Shown here: one piece after another, positions 8,109-14,538 of the stretch
How positions within the stretch are numbered: position 1 is the stretch's first letter
Layout: every line of letters starts with the position of its first letter
Assembly: GCF_021191705.1 (NCBI RefSeq)
Contig: NZ_JAIWPU010000039.1
Location: 1 to 64,000, forward strand
DNA: 64,000 nt
Direction: 5' to 3'
Source of the DNA: Proluteimonas flavola
GTDB taxonomy: Bacteria; Pseudomonadota; Gammaproteobacteria; Xanthomonadales; Xanthomonadaceae
Notes under the pieces: generated by a model
Seen by the model: the letters and a program-made list of their open reading frames with translations, nothing else
The model's database searches: none
Told to the model about the DNA's origin: nothing
Translations under genes and position numbers: made by a program

Positions 8109-8255
<147 letters not shown>

Positions 8256-8406: not shown

Positions 8407-8471
8407 GTGGGAGCGCTTGCGCGCGATGGCGCTGTGCCGGGAACGCCCCTTCGCGCGCAAGCGCGCTCCCA
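8407..8471. repeat. Intact REP palindrome, GTGGGAGCGC family
   Basis: The left arm, beginning GTGGGAGCGC and running on through TTGCGCGCGA (8407-8426), pairs with a right arm ending GCGCGCTCCCA at 8471, leaving a loop of about 25 nt. This is the cleanest copy in the window and defines the family. A lone half copy (GTGGGAGCGCA) is near 8640. The 574-bp gap 8093-8666 between cytochrome b561 and asnB holds these repeats and a hairpin, and no gene. Confidence 0.8.
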
Positions 8472-8666: not shown

Positions 8667-10370
8667 TCAGACGGGAGCGTGGTGGATGCCTGCCACCGCA
8701 CGCCCCGATGGATCGGCCGCATTCGCGAACGCGGCATCCCAGGCGATCGCAGCAGGCGACGAACACGCGATCGACTTGCCGCCCGGCACCGTCGCTGCGG
8801 CAGCCGGTGACGGGAACACGCGTTCGAAGACGCTGCGGTAGTAGTACGCCTCCTTCGTCTGCGGCGGGTTGTGCGGGAAGCGGCTCGCAGCGGCCGAAAG
8901 TTCACGATCGCTGACCTGCGCCTCGGCGTGCGCCTTGAGCCCGTCGATCCAGCCGTAACCGACACCGTCGCTGAACTGCTCCTTCTGCCGCCACAGGATC
9001 TCGTCGGGCAGATGGCCGTCGAACGCGGCACGCAACACGCCCTTTTCCATGCGCTGGAAGCCGTCGCTGCCGCGGTGGATCATCTTGTGCGCGGCGTCGA
9101 AGCGCATCGCGACATCAAGGAACTCGCGGTCGAGGAACGGCACGCGCGGTTCCACGCCCCAGGCCATCATCGACTTGTTCGCGCGCAGGCAGTCGTAGTT
9201 GTGAAGTGCGTCGAGCTTGCGCACCAGCTCCTCGTGGAACTGCCGTGCGTCCGGCGCCTTGTGGAAGTACAGGTAGCCGCCGAAGATCTCATCAGAGCCC
9301 TCGCCCGACAGCACCATCTTCACGCCCATCGCCTTGATCCGGCGCGCGAGCAGGAACATCGGCGTCGACGCGCGGATCGTCGTCACGTCGAAGGTCTCGA
9401 CGTGGCGGATCACGTCGGGGATGGCATCGAGCCCTTCCTCGAAGGTGTATTCGAAGCCGTGATGCACGGTGCCCAGCGACTCGGCGGCAATCGCGGCAGC
9501 CGCGAGATCCGGCGAGCCCTTCAGGCCGATCGCGAACGAATGCAGACGCGGCCACCAGGCTTCGCTGCGGTCGCCATCCTCGACGCGATGCCGCGCGTAG
9601 CGCGCAGCGACGGCGGCGACCAGCGAGGAATCCAGACCACCCGACAGCAGCACGCCATAGGGCACGTCGGTCATCAGCTGGCGATGCACCGCAGCCTCGA
9701 ACGCCTCGCGCACGTCGTCGAGCGACACGTCCACGCCTTCCACTGCGTCGTAGTCGCGCCAGGGCCGCTTGTAGTACTGCGTGAGCACGCCAGTCGCGCT
9801 GTCGTACCAGTGGCCGGGCGGGAATTGCGCGACATCGGCGCAGGTATCGGCCAGCGCTTTCATCTCGGACGCGACGCGCAGGCGGCCTTCGCGGTCGTGG
9901 CCCCAGTACAGCGGCACCACGCCGATCGGATCGCGGGCGATGATCGCGCGGCCGCTGTCGCGATCCCAAAGCGCGAACGCGAAGATGCCGTTGAGTCGCT
10001 CGAGGAATGCCGATGGACCGCTGCCGTCGGCCTCGTGCTCGCGATACAGCGCGCTGACCACTTCGCAGTCCGACGCGGTCTGGAACGCGTACGGCACGCG
10101 CAATTCGGTCTTCAGCGTCTGATGGTTGTAGATCTCGCCGTTGACCGCGAGCACCAGCGCGCCGTCCTCGGACAGCAGCGGCTGCGAGCCCCCCGCCGGA
10201 TCGACGATGGCGAGACGCTCATGCACGAGGATCGCGCGGTCGTCGACGTGAACGCCGCTCCAGTCGGGGCCGCGGTGGCGCTGGCGCTGCGAGCACTCGA
10301 GCGCCTGCCGGCGCAGAACGGTTGCGTCGTCGCCTGGTTGCAGGCCGAAGATGCCGAAGATCGAACACAT
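8667..10370 (-). CDS. asnB: Asparagine synthase B (glutamine-hydrolysing)
   Basis: A 567-residue enzyme converting aspartate, glutamine and ATP to asparagine, glutamate, AMP and PPi. Residue C2 after the initiator Met (MCSIFGIFG) is the glutaminase nucleophile. The class II amidotransferase domain includes RHRGPDWSG and VNGEIYNHQ. The synthetase PP-loop SGGLDSSLVAA is around residue 244. The tail ends in the family-typical IACSSPAAIAWD. Length matches E. coli AsnB (554). An AGGAG ribosome-binding site (10378-10382) precedes the ATG. Upstream on the same strand lie an Asn-rich leader ORF and an intrinsic terminator (10427-10580), strongly suggesting control by asparagine attenuation. Confidence 0.97.
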   Translation of the reverse strand: MCSIFGIFGLQPGDDATVLRRQALECSQRQRHRGPDWSGVHVDDRAILVHERLAIVDPAGGSQPLLSEDGALVLAVNGEIYNHQTLKTELRVPYAFQTASDCEVVSALYREHEADGSGPSAFLERLNGIFAFALWDRDSGRAIIARDPIGVVPLYWGHDREGRLRVASEMKALADTCADVAQFPPGHWYDSATGVLTQYYKRPWRDYDAVEGVDVSLDDVREAFEAAVHRQLMTDVPYGVLLSGGLDSSLVAAVAARYARHRVEDGDRSEAWWPRLHSFAIGLKGSPDLAAAAIAAESLGTVHHGFEYTFEEGLDAIPDVIRHVETFDVTTIRASTPMFLLARRIKAMGVKMVLSGEGSDEIFGGYLYFHKAPDARQFHEELVRKLDALHNYDCLRANKSMMAWGVEPRVPFLDREFLDVAMRFDAAHKMIHRGSDGFQRMEKGVLRAAFDGHLPDEILWRQKEQFSDGVGYGWIDGLKAHAEAQVSDRELSAAASRFPHNPPQTKEAYYYRSVFERVFPSPAAAATVPGGKSIACSSPAAIAWDAAFANAADPSGRAVAGIHHAPV

Positions 10371-10426: not shown

Positions 10427-10457
10427 AAAAAAACCCGCATCGCGGCCGATGCGGGTT
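10427..10457 (-). terminator. Intrinsic terminator in the asnB leader (attenuator stem 3:4)
   Basis: On the minus strand AACCCGCATCG-GCCG-CGATGCGGGTT is a perfect 11-bp stem with a GCCG loop. The run of seven T includes the last two stem bases. It lies 57-87 bp before the asnB start and after the leader ORF, so it would end transcription before asnB. Its 5' arm is also perfectly complementary to 10507-10516, inside the leader ORF, which allows an alternative antiterminator. Confidence 0.9.
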
Positions 10458-10484
10458 CGTGTTCCGGTGCCTGCGCGTCTTGCC

Positions 10485-10580
10485 TTACTGCTGCGCCAGC
10501 TCCCACACCCGCATCGACCGCGCACGATTATTCGTGCGCAGTGCGTTGCGGTTGCGATTGTTGGCAGCGATGCGGGGCAT
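10485..10580 (-). CDS. Asparagine-rich leader peptide of asnB
   Basis: A 31-codon ORF begins MPRIAANNRNRNALRTNN and ends ELAQQ before TAA. Six of the 31 residues are Asn (7, 8, 10, 12, 17, 18), using both AAC and AAT. It stops 27 bp before the terminator stem. Such biased composition next to an amino-acid biosynthetic gene is the hallmark of a leader peptide in transcription attenuation (compare trpL, hisL). No strong Shine-Dalgarno is visible; AGG lies about 10 bases before the ATG. Codons 2-5 contain segment 1 and codons 22-25 segment 2 of the alternative pairing scheme. The peptide itself probably has no function once made. Confidence 0.82.
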   Translation of the reverse strand: MPRIAANNRNRNALRTNNRARSMRVWELAQQ

Positions 10581-10616
10581 GGAGTGCAACCTAAAGGCTA
10601 AGCGGTGGACGCGCAA

Positions 10617-10634
10617 CCGTTGCGTGCGCAACGG
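10617..10634. promoter_or_regulatory. 18-bp palindrome between dctA and the asnB leader
   Basis: CCGTTGCG-TG-CGCAACGG is a perfect 8-bp inverted repeat, 37 bp before the leader ATG and 50 bp after the dctA stop. It has no T tract, so it is a poor terminator. A regulator-binding site for the asnB leader transcript is possible. No convincing -10/-35 pair was found around it. Confidence 0.3.
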
Positions 10635-10683: not shown

Positions 10684-12087
10684 TCACTTCACCGGCAACG
10701 CGTCGACCGGCAATGCGGTGGCGGCGTTCTTCTCCGCAAGCAGGCGGTCGGGATCGACCAGCGACGGATTGTCGAGCACCTCGTTGAGACGCTCGCGGTC
10801 GAGCTGGCCGGTCCAGCGTGCGATCACCAGCGTGCCGATGCCGTTGCCGGTGAGGTTGGTCAGCGCGCGACCTTCGGACATGAAGCGGTCGATGCCGACG
10901 ATCAGGGCAATGCCCGCGAGCGGAATCACGCTCTCGAACGCCGCCAGCGAGGCCGCCAGCGTCACCAGGCCCGCGCCCGACACACCGGCCGCGCCGTTCG
11001 ACGAGATCAGCATGAAGACCAGCAGCGCGATCTGCGTGCCCAGCGGCACTTCGATGCCGAAGGCCTGGGCGATGAAGATCGCACCCATCGTCATGTAGAT
11101 CGCGGTGCCGTCGAGATTGAACGAGTAGCCCGTGGGAATGGTCAGGCCGACGACCGACTTCGGCACACCGGCCGCTTCGAGCTTGGTGAGCATGCGCGGC
11201 AGCACCGTCTCCGACGACGAGGTGCCGAGCACGATCAGCAGCTCGTCGCGGATCATGCGGATGTACTTGAAGATGCTGAAACCCGACCACCAGCAGATCG
11301 GCCCGAGCACCAGGAACAGGAACAGCAGGCAGGTCATCCAGAAGCTGACCATGAAGTAGCCGAGCGAGCCGAGGATCGCGCTGCCGTACTCGCCGATGGT
11401 GAAGGCCATGCCGCCCATCGCACCCAGTGGCGCGAACCACATGACGATCTTGATGACGCCGAACATCACCTGGGCGATGGTGTCGAGCGCCGCGACAGCG
11501 GGCTTGCCGCGCTCGCCGAGCATCGTGATCGCGCAGGCGACGAGGATCGCCATCACCAGCACCTGGATCAGCTGGCCTTCGACGAACGCGCCGAAGAACG
11601 AACTGGGCACCAGATGCAGCAGGAAGCCGGTGAAGCCGCTGCCTGCCGCAGCGCCGGCGCTGCTCAGCGTGCCTTCCGCCGCCGAAGCATCGAAGGTGGC
11701 GATGTCGAGGCCGAGCATGCGACCGGGGCCCAGCAGATTGATGACGACCAGGCCGATGCCCAGTGCGAAGACGGTGGTGACGTTGAAGTAGATGACGGTC
11801 TTGAGCGCCAGGCCGCCGGCCTTGGCGAGGTTGCCGAGTCCGGCGATGCCGACCGCGACGGTCGCGAAGATGGTCGGCGCGATGACGACCTTGACCAGCT
11901 TGATGAAGAGATCGGCCAGCCATTTCATCTGCGCGCCGACCTGCGGCGCCGCGAGGCCGATGATGATGCCCGCGGCGATGCCCACCAGCACCCAGAAGTA
12001 CAGGTGGTGCCACAGCTTCTTGCGCTTCGGCGCGGGCCCGGGTGTCGGGGCTTTGACGGCGTTCTGGGAGAGGGGATCGGTCTGCAT
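10684..12087 (-). CDS. dctA: C4-dicarboxylate/amino acid:cation symporter (DctA-like)
   Basis: A 467-residue inner-membrane transporter of the DAACS/SLC1 family, which imports succinate, fumarate, malate or aspartate/glutamate with protons or sodium. The re-entrant-loop motif VLGTSSSETVLPRML and the helix-7 motif PTGYSFNLDGTAIYMTMGAIF resemble DctA more than GltP. Multiple hydrophobic helices span the length. The ATG at 12087 gives MQTDPLSQNAV; an earlier in-frame start would add 13 doubtful residues. It lies upstream of asnB on the same strand, separated by 313 bp that contain the asnB attenuator. Uptake of aspartate or its precursors next to asparagine synthesis is suggestive but unproven. 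Confidence 0.9.
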   Translation of the reverse strand: MQTDPLSQNAVKAPTPGPAPKRKKLWHHLYFWVLVGIAAGIIIGLAAPQVGAQMKWLADLFIKLVKVVIAPTIFATVAVGIAGLGNLAKAGGLALKTVIYFNVTTVFALGIGLVVINLLGPGRMLGLDIATFDASAAEGTLSSAGAAAGSGFTGFLLHLVPSSFFGAFVEGQLIQVLVMAILVACAITMLGERGKPAVAALDTIAQVMFGVIKIVMWFAPLGAMGGMAFTIGEYGSAILGSLGYFMVSFWMTCLLFLFLVLGPICWWSGFSIFKYIRMIRDELLIVLGTSSSETVLPRMLTKLEAAGVPKSVVGLTIPTGYSFNLDGTAIYMTMGAIFIAQAFGIEVPLGTQIALLVFMLISSNGAAGVSGAGLVTLAASLAAFESVIPLAGIALIVGIDRFMSEGRALTNLTGNGIGTLVIARWTGQLDRERLNEVLDNPSLVDPDRLLAEKNAATALPVDALPVK

Positions 12088-12259
12088 GCCGCAAGCCTGC
12101 CAGATGAACAACGATTGCAAACTCACACCATGGGACTAGGTGGCGCAGTCAGGTTTCTGCGGGACCGGCATTCAAGGCGTGTATTGGTGGGGATCTGCCC
12201 GGAAACGAGCTGATTGCCTGGCTCCATCCGACGGCGCCCCGTCGCGAGGCACGCCTCTT

Positions 12260-12351
12260 GTGGAAGCGCGCTCGCGCGCGATGTGGCCGTCCCGATGACC
12301 GTCCGTTCGCGCGAGTTGCATCCCGGGAATCGCGCGCGAGCGCGCTCCCAC
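12260..12351. repeat. REP palindrome, GTGGGAGCGC family
   Basis: GTGGAAGCGCGCTCGCGCGC (12260-12279) pairs with a right arm that ends GAGCGCGCTCCCAC at about 12352. The loop is about 45 nt. The 342-bp gap 12088-12429 between dctA and pnp contains this repeat and the pnp terminator, and no gene. Confidence 0.8.
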
Positions 12352-12379
12352 GGGGGTCGGGGGCCGGGATGCCCCAACG

Positions 12380-12429: not shown

Positions 12430-14538
12430 TTACTCGGCCGGCGTGCCTTCGCCTTCGGCGACGGCCTTCATCGACAGGCGGATGCGGCCCTGCTTGTCGA
12501 CTTCCAGCACCTTGACCTTGACCACGTCGCCTTCCTTGAGCACGTCGCCGACCTTCTCGACGCGCTCGTTGGAGATCTGCGACACGTGGACCAGACCGTC
12601 CTTGCCGGGGGAGATCGTCACGAACGCGCCGAAGTCCATCAGCTTGACGACCTTGCCCTCGTAGATGCGGCCGGGCTCGACGTCCGAGGTGATCTGCTCG
12701 ATGCGTTCCTTCGCGGCGCGGCCGGCGGCGGCGTCGACCGAGGCGATGGTGATCGTGCCGTCGTCCTGGATGTCGATCTGGGTGCCGGTCTCCTTGGTGA
12801 TGCCCTGGATGACCGAACCGCCCTTGCCGATGACTTCGCGGATCTTGTCGGGGTGGATCTTGATCGTGATCAGGCGCGGCGCGAACTCGCTGAGCTCGGT
12901 CCGGGCCGTGGTCAGCGCGCTGCTCATCTCCTGCAGGATGTGCAGGCGGCCCTGCTTCGCCTGGGCCAGCGCGACGCGCATGATCTCCTCGGTGATGCCC
13001 TGGATCTTGATATCCATCTGCAGCGCCGAGATGCCGTTCGTGGTGCCGGCGACCTTGAAGTCCATGTCGCCGAGGTGGTCTTCGTCACCCAGGATGTCCG
13101 ACAGCACGACGTAGTCGTCGCCTTCCTTGACCAGGCCCATCGCGATGCCCGCGACCGGCGCCTTGATCGGCACGCCCGCGTCCATCAGCGCCAGCGAGGA
13201 ACCGCAGACCGACGCCATCGACGAGGAACCGTTCGACTCGGTGATTTCCGAGACGACGCGGATGGTGTACGGGAACTCTTCCATCGTCGGCATCACGGCG
13301 AGTACGCCGCGCTTGGCCAGACGGCCATGGCCGATCTCGCGACGCTTCGGACCCATCATGCGGCCGGCTTCGCCCACCGAGTACGGGGGGAAGTTGTAGT
13401 GGAACAGGAAATGTTCCTTGTACTCGCCAGCGACGGCGTCGATGATCTGGCCGTCGCGCGCGGTGCCGAGGGTCACGGCGACGATCGCCTGCGTCTCGCC
13501 ACGGGTGAACAGCGAGGAGCCGTGCACGCGCGGGAGGATGCTGACCTTCGAGCTGATCGGGCGCACGGTGTCGAGCGCACGGCCGTCGATGCGGACCTTG
13601 GTCTTGAGGACCGAGTTGCGCATCGTCTGGTATTCCTGCTCGCCGAATTCCTTCGACAGCTCGCCATGCGACCACGCATTGGCTTCGGCATGCGGCGCGA
13701 CGGCTTCGAGGATCGCCTTCTTGACCTTGGAGATCGCGTCCTTGCGCTCGAGCTTGTCGCGCACCTGGAACGCGCTGGCGAGCTGCTCGCCCACGGCGGT
13801 GCGGATGGCCGAGATCAGGCCTTCGTTGGCGGCCGGCGCCGACCATTCCCACTTCGGCTTGCCGGCCTCACTGACGAGCTCGTTGATCGTGGCGATCGCG
13901 ACCTGCATCTGCTGGTGGCCGAACATCACGGCGCCGAGCATCACGTCTTCCGAAAGCTCCTTCGCTTCGGACTCGACCATCAGCACCGCGTTCGCGGTAC
14001 CGGCGACGACGAGCTCCAGGTCCGAATCCTTCAGCTCGGACACGGTCGGGTTGAGCAGATACTGGCCGTCCTTGTAGCCGACCTTGGCGGCGCCGATCGG
14101 GCCGTCGAACGGCGCGCCCGACAGCGACAGCGCGGCGGAAGCGCCGATCAGGGCGAGGATGTCGCCGTCGACGTCCGGGTTCATCGACATCACGGTGGCG
14201 ATGATCTGGACTTCGTTGCGGAAGCCATCGGGGAACAGCGGACGGATCGGACGGTCGATCAGGCGCGAGATCAGCGTTTCCTTCTCGGTGGCGCGGCCTT
14301 CGCGCTTGAAGAAGCCACCCGGAATGCGGCCGCCGGCGTAGAACTTCTCCTGGTAGTCGACGGTCAGCGGGAAGAAGTCCTGGCCCTCGCGCGCGGTCTT
14401 GTTGGCGACCGCGGTGACCAGCACCTGGGTGCCGTCGCAGGACACCATCACCGCACCGCCGGCCTGGCGCGCGATCTCGCCGGTCTCGAGCGTCACCGTC
14501 CGGCTGCCGTACTGGAAGCTCTTTGTCACTTTTGCCAC
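12430..14538 (-). CDS. pnp: Polyribonucleotide nucleotidyltransferase (PNPase)
   Basis: A 702-residue phosphorolytic 3'-5' exoribonuclease and degradosome component. Two RNase PH domains are present; the second includes [13 protein letters not shown] and the active-site region [13 protein letters not shown]. They are followed by a KH domain with the GxxG loop [10 protein letters not shown] and a C-terminal S1 domain ([18 protein letters not shown]). Length fits the family (about 700). It is 120 bp downstream of rpsO with a strong hairpin between, the conserved rpsO-pnp arrangement in which pnp can be transcribed both from its own promoter and by readthrough. The start at 14538 gives [11 protein letters not shown]. 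Confidence 0.98.

Follow-up and report, generated by a model that had tools for sequence, protein, structure and literature searches.

How do bacteria related to Xanthomonas and Lysobacter tune asparagine synthesis? The question is raised by a locus on the minus strand of Proluteimonas flavola contig NZ_JAIWPU010000039.1 (positions 1 to 64,000, a stretch of 64,000 nucleotides referred to here as the window), in which a short open reading frame (ORF) rich in asparagine (Asn) codons and an intrinsic terminator precede asnB, the gene for asparagine synthase B. An earlier note, made from the sequence alone, had proposed that asnB is attenuated here in response to charged Asn-tRNA. Our analysis of relatives points to the same answer, and we put at about 90% the probability that this leader controls asnB as a ribosome-mediated transcription attenuator of the trp type, with charged Asn-tRNA as the signal sensed. 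What speaks for it is a conserved ORF, the Asn codons within it, the placement of the promoter, the terminator, a maintained antiterminator pairing and the geometry of the whole, all of them features of sequence.

An Asn-rich leader and terminator upstream of asnB

The predicted leaderless leader ORF (10485–10580, minus strand) comprises 31 codons from an ATG at 10580 to a TAA ending at 10485, and translates to MPRIAANNRNRNALRTNNRARSMRVWELAQQ. Six putative regulatory Asn codons can be read from its sequence between 10562 and 10527: AAC AAT at 10562-10557, AAC at 10553-10551, AAC at 10547-10545 and AAT AAT at 10532-10527. The terminator stem (10457-10447/10442-10432) is GC-rich, measures 11 base pairs and starts 27 nucleotides past the leader stop codon; it is followed by a run of seven T (10433-10427), the first two of which double as the last bases of the stem. 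The presumed controlled gene, asnB (8667–10370, minus strand), begins at 10370, downstream of the terminator, and its product matches the glutamine-hydrolysing asparagine synthase B family NF006949 at 855 bits against a cut-off of 499. The earlier note had described the ORF with its six Asn codons, the 11-base-pair terminator with a T tract and an asnB gene downstream; all of this stands, exactly to the base. Two hallmarks of trp-type leaders are therefore present, namely a cluster of codons for the very amino acid that the downstream enzyme makes and an intrinsic terminator between the leader ORF and the structural gene. The leader region as a whole folds with a z score of -6.1, and none of 200 shuffles was equally stable.

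The same note had drawn four segments of alternating complementarity, and all are present in the window. Segment 1 (CCCGCATCG; 10568–10576) is complementary to segment 2 (10506–10516), which lies within the last codons of the leader ORF and would form the 5' strand of the antiterminator. Segment 3 (10447–10457) is common to antiterminator and terminator, as indicated by the pairing tests below and by the terminator itself, and segment 4 (10442-10432) together with the T tract makes up the remainder of the terminator (10427–10442), which is recognised from the sequence, a terminator scan and relatives. The sequence CGATGCGGGT occurs at 10516-10507 as segment 2 and again at 10442-10433 as segment 4, and segment 3 reads ACCCGCATCG at 10456-10447.

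Conservation with one asnB orthologue

We compared 80 named AsnB loci, 70 of which have at least 72% identity in the best segment, and defined a leader as a short ORF with at least three Asn in 14 residues, then a terminator. Leader and terminator lie upstream of asnB in 66 of these 70 loci. One of the other four sits at a contig end with just 60 nucleotides of upstream sequence (L035), and three have no leader within 900 nucleotides, these being titled Holophagales (L030), Rhodococcus (L043) and Deltaproteobacteria (L075). Among the ten named loci below 72% identity, one has a leader (L084). An AsnB match is present in 216 of 299 genomes of the order, and from a subset of these 216 we examined 102 loci beyond the window's own (32, 40 and 30). 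The leader is found at every one of the 59 whole-genome loci with at least 72% identity (58 genomes, one of which, G490, contributes both L108 and L165), as against 1 of 43 below that threshold (L169); named and whole-genome loci taken together, it occurs at 2 of 53 loci below 72%. The leader is tied to one asnB orthologue, and more distant AsnB copies in the order mostly do without it. Retention in relatives of a short ORF with clustered Asn codons, which the earlier note had put forward as a check, is thereby borne out, and the putative switch is conserved upstream of asnB in the Xanthomonas-Lysobacter-Rhodanobacter group.

With the window included, the leaders number 128, of which 122 are unique once G490 is counted a single time and five upstream regions identical between the named and whole-genome sets are allowed for. 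The Asn density is three per 14 residues in 8 of the 128 leaders and four to eight in 120. Nine loci that reached at least three Asn in 14 residues were excluded by eye for want of a plausible terminator (L082, L086, L099, L135, L136, L137, L175, L180 and L183). L042, for which the script accepted no start codon, is left out of the set of 121 leaders used below; GTG was taken as the start in five leaders (L047, L051, L060, L073 and L140), and the longest leader, 175 residues in L140, is an artefact of that choice.

Several individual loci merit separate mention. L030 (81% identity) and L043 (73%) are close AsnB copies that lack the leader, and may reflect transfer or mis-assigned contigs. In L169 (genome G446), from another family of the order, an AsnB with 65% identity is preceded by MFAIYNTINTTNNRLLRSAGSF and then a terminator, either an ancestral remnant or a leader of independent origin. 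L084, from an uncultured bacterium, has an AsnB with 67% identity, an Asn-containing ORF, a TTGACG/CATACT pair near the ATG and a terminator, and its segments 2 and 3 pair strongly (-18.1 kcal/mol).

Asn decoding as the signal

We searched 1,001,462 bases, counting both strands of the window and of the 80 asnB loci, for a composite motif of a short ORF with at least four Asn in 14 residues and a terminator within 40 nucleotides. All 63 matches lay at asnB leaders; with the terminator condition dropped, there were 64 matches at asnB leaders and 23 elsewhere. In the genome that the window comes from, no leader motif was found at three paralogues with an Asn_synthase domain (L003-L005) or at asnS (L089).

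Across the 121 leaders, AAY (AAC or AAT) accounts for 731 of 4120 codons in frame, whereas the two remaining frames have 6 and 5 among 3999, and AAA and AAG together occur in frame just 13 times. Because AAY is confined to one frame and AAA and AAG are rare, the signal is Asn decoding rather than A-rich RNA. This bears on whether a protein or metabolite might instead act on the leader RNA (as a T-box, a riboswitch or the target of an RNA-binding protein), with the ORF incidental. Such a sensor would fit a terminator upstream of a biosynthetic gene just as well, and an inverted repeat by the promoter, described below, hints at an additional DNA-binding regulator; however, an untranslated sensor would have no need to restrict AAY codons to a single reading frame. 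At the gathering score the leader matches no Rfam family, and no T-box match appears even at a relaxed threshold, where the one match is to isrK (10428-10539, minus strand), at 20.4 bits against a cut-off of 50, which we take as chance. We consider this type of sensor barely credible.

Similarly, the terminator might depend on translation without any specificity for Asn, since a terminator and coupling geometry alone would tie termination to translation. Against this, Asn makes up 17.7% of residues in the 121 leaders, and does so upstream of a gene that makes Asn, which leaves a generic translation-dependent terminator scarcely plausible. The choice of Asn codon differs between leaders and genes: AAT forms 47% of Asn codons in leaders (192/407) versus 14% in the asnB genes (73/533) at 65 named loci, perhaps because it is decoded more slowly or helps to avoid structure.

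The Asn physiology of the genome suits an attenuator of this kind. Asparaginyl-tRNA synthetase (AsnRS) is encoded (633.5 bits), the genome (G000) has no GatB match and no AsnA match, and just one AsnB match reaches an E value of 1e-80 or lower. With AsnRS present and neither GatB nor AsnA matched, Asn-tRNA charging should report free Asn: the tRNA should be charged only with free Asn, supplied by AsnB or by uptake, which would make its charging a sensible signal. The three Asn_synthase-domain paralogues (C61, C16 and C32 of G000) fall far below the asparagine synthase cut-offs; their nearest families, still below cut-off, are macrolactam and lasso-peptide cyclases and XrtA amidotransferases, and they are possibly peptide-modifying enzymes.

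A maintained antiterminator

As terminator lengths vary, segments in relatives were anchored by script. Over the 122 loci, the duplex between a locus's own segments 2 and 3 (2:3) has an average energy of -15.07 kcal/mol, versus -13.50 kcal/mol (standard deviation 0.18) when partners are permuted, and none of 20000 permutations reaches the observed value. In smaller sets of 22, 35 and 49 dissimilar representatives, the observed value is reached by 5, 1 and 0 of 20000 permutations, respectively. In anchored counts, 444 of the 497 core 2:3 cells from 71 distinct segment sets are paired (0.893), against a re-optimised null with a mean of 0.849 and a maximum of 0.871 in 200. The corresponding 3:4 cells are all paired (475/475) by construction of the hairpin finder and are no evidence in themselves. 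The centre, CCCGC/GCGGG, is almost invariant; in the flanks both strands vary, for 2:3 as well as for 3:4. These sequence comparisons indicate that a mutually exclusive antiterminator (2:3) is maintained in evolution, beyond what permutation controls yield.

The compensatory pairing that the earlier note anticipated in relatives therefore holds for the 2:3 antiterminator, and the terminator too recurs there; the note's segment 1 fares differently, with 4780 of 5000 mismatched-locus permutations at least as good as the true pairing. As a conserved element segment 1 is rejected; the window is one of 10 loci, out of 122, in which an upstream match beats 95% of shuffles.

These data also bear on a further alternative, that the product of the short ORF is itself functional, as an Asn-rich small protein or a sequence-dependent arrest peptide, and that the terminator does no more than close its gene. 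The 128 leaders retain the ORF in the same position, and its C-terminal residues are similar within clades, as a functional peptide would predict. However, outside the Asn run and the segment 2 codons both the sequence and the length of the peptides vary widely, and the unit goes with asnB. Changes at the C terminus can also follow those in the terminator: in L033, L037, L038 and L056, segment 3 has CCTGC rather than CCCGC and the leader has CAG (Gln) in place of CGG (Arg). We judge a small protein or arrest peptide very unlikely. Under attenuation, by comparison, the peptide would evolve under an RNA-pairing constraint because its C-terminal codons double as antiterminator.

The spacing of these elements is likewise in keeping with attenuation. 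At the median, 11 nucleotides separate the last Asn codon from segment 2, 10 nucleotides lie between the 3' end of segment 2 and the end of the stop codon, and 26 nucleotides lie between the stop codon and segment 3. Given a ribosome footprint of the generally accepted size, this arrangement would leave segment 2 accessible when the ribosome stalls and covered when it terminates.

A predicted leaderless start and a candidate operator

A putative promoter that would place the start of transcription at the ATG had escaped the earlier note. In the window, a putative -35 element, TTGCGC (10611–10616, minus strand), is followed at a distance of 17 nucleotides by a putative -10 element, TAGGTT (10588–10593), 7 nucleotides before the ATG. 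The TTGC is conserved in position: among the 121 unique leaders, 110 have it between -45 and -21 relative to the leader start, and in 105 it begins at -37 to -35, compared with 7 of 71 in a control window. A hexamer with A at its second and T at its sixth position, ending 6-7 nucleotides before the start, is found in 77 of 121 leaders, and C stands at -1 in 112 of 121. Start codons were chosen partly by way of the -10 region, so the -10 count is partly circular; the -35 element played no part in the choice. Because conserved -35 and -10 elements end 6-7 nucleotides before the leader start, the transcript is predicted to be leaderless, with transcription starting at the leader AUG or about one nucleotide before it.

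Immediately 5' of the -35 element lies an inverted repeat, GTTGC-N4-GCAAC (10619–10632, minus strand), a candidate operator for a regulator that might add a second layer of control. The form GTTGC-N(3-5)-GNAAC occurs just upstream of the -35 element in 43 of 121 leaders and in none of 54 control windows. The genome contains one exact copy of an operator-like 20-base composite; allowing one mismatch gives four matches, the same number as for the reversed control.

Proposed mechanism and points against it

We infer ribosome stalling, read-through, a response to Asn and the leaderless start, and would assemble them as follows. RNA polymerase would start at the leader AUG or about one nucleotide before it, and a ribosome would load on the leaderless 5' end and translate the Asn-rich peptide. 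With Asn-tRNA charged, the ribosome would reach the stop codon and cover segment 2, so that the 3:4 terminator forms. When Asn is short, it would stall in the Asn run; segment 2, left uncovered, would pair with segment 3, and asnB would be transcribed. A more elaborate version is doubtful: that an Asn-specific leaderless attenuator became fixed with one asnB orthologue in the Lysobacterales and acquired GTTGC-N4-GCAAC as a dedicated operator in Xanthomonas-like genera, and that the terminated RNA of about 150 nucleotides, in itself a very small leaderless mRNA, has a further role in trans like that reported for Sinorhizobium rnTrpL.

Several observations weigh against attenuation by this route. 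First, the antiterminator is not uniformly strong. Pairing with segment 3 falls short of the 95% level of codon shuffles in 35 of 122 leaders, and 2:3 pairing does not exceed the mean of swaps in 27 of 122; two loci close to the window, L009 and L012, each have a 2:3 mismatch; and the antiterminator region alone folds with a z score of -1.15, with 22 of 200 shuffles as good. Second, the classical pause hairpin (1:2) is present in the window and is not general among relatives. Upstream complementarity to segment 2 is at chance level over the 122 loci (mean -14.54, shuffles -14.53). A local hairpin in the window that carries Asn codons around its loop and could serve for pausing (10517–10542, minus strand; z -4.1) is not family-wide either, with a mean z of -0.56 and 19 of 121 leaders below -2. 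Finally, a strict sigma-70 scan (TTGACA/TATAAT) gave no promoter at the leader, and a Shine-Dalgarno-like tetramer 4-16 nucleotides before the start in 22 of 121 leaders could permit a short 5' untranslated region.

Relation to known systems

T-box leaders of Asn genes in Firmicutes sense Asn-tRNA charging by direct binding of the tRNA, without a leader ORF. They resemble the asnB leader in that Asn-tRNA charging would be sensed upstream of Asn genes; the asnB leader differs in having an ORF and no T-box match. The trp, his, leu, ilv, thr and phe leaders of proteobacteria are ribosome-mediated attenuators, and share with the asnB leader an ORF rich in codons for the product, a terminator, a competing antiterminator and a presumed dependence on ribosome position. 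The asnB leader differs from them in its amino acid, in a 1:2 pairing that is not conserved, in its predicted leaderless form and in matching no Rfam family.

The general scheme, in which a leader ORF rich in product codons precedes competing terminator and antiterminator structures and the position of the ribosome decides between them, is set out in PMC7298713. As described there, the 5' end of the Sinorhizobium meliloti trpL attenuator RNA (rnTrpL) coincides with the ATG of the leader ORF, as is predicted for asnB; trpL differs in that it concerns Trp, belongs to an alphaproteobacterium and is reported to act in trans through both RNA and peptide. In excerpts of PMC11857589 and PMC11109978, the ilvBNC leader of Corynebacterium (C. 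glutamicum) is described as starting one nucleotide from the leader start codon and as having a terminator and an antiterminator; it shares this pair of structures and has a near-leaderless start like the one predicted for asnB, whereas it responds to branched-chain amino acids and is actinobacterial. From comparative genomics, the main text of PMC8632094 describes uORFC-8-2, an upstream ORF with Cys codons ahead of cysS in Rhodobacterales, which likewise combines an amino-acid-specific upstream ORF with a terminator but differs in its amino acid, Cys, and in preceding a tRNA synthetase gene.

An Asn-specific ribosome-mediated attenuator was not found in targeted searches of the literature, coverage of which is partial, so that absence from print is not proven. 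In the main text of PMC2965389, a survey of premature terminators, the string 'asparagin' is absent and the one 'asn' belongs to an author's name; in passages of PMC5009743 and PMC5864092 asparagine appears in other contexts. The main texts of three genome-wide motif surveys, PMC11109978, PMC6429828 and PMC8632094, contain neither 'asparagin' nor 'asnB'. The trp-type mechanism is known, and leaderless attenuator leaders are on record; what would be new is the amino acid, Asn, in a predicted leaderless form.

If the attenuator is real, asparagine joins the list of amino acids whose supply is read out through stalling of a leader ribosome, and the way in which these bacteria tune asparagine synthesis would be explained; the genome examined has no match to AsnA or to the GatCAB route. 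The 122 unique leaders amount to a natural set of variants of an attenuator that is predicted to be leaderless and whose classical 1:2 hairpin is not conserved, and it therefore becomes testable whether a leaderless 5' end can replace the pause hairpin in coupling ribosome to polymerase.

Neighbouring gene and repeats

The gene that precedes the leader on the same strand (10684-12126) encodes a DctA-type transporter. Near asnB, a GC-rich inverted repeat pairs 8110-8168 with 8413-8471 (arms of 59 nucleotides, 88% complementary), and a direct repeat links 8156-8193, near asnB, with 12331-12368, near a gene at 12430-14538. Both look like interspersed palindromic elements.
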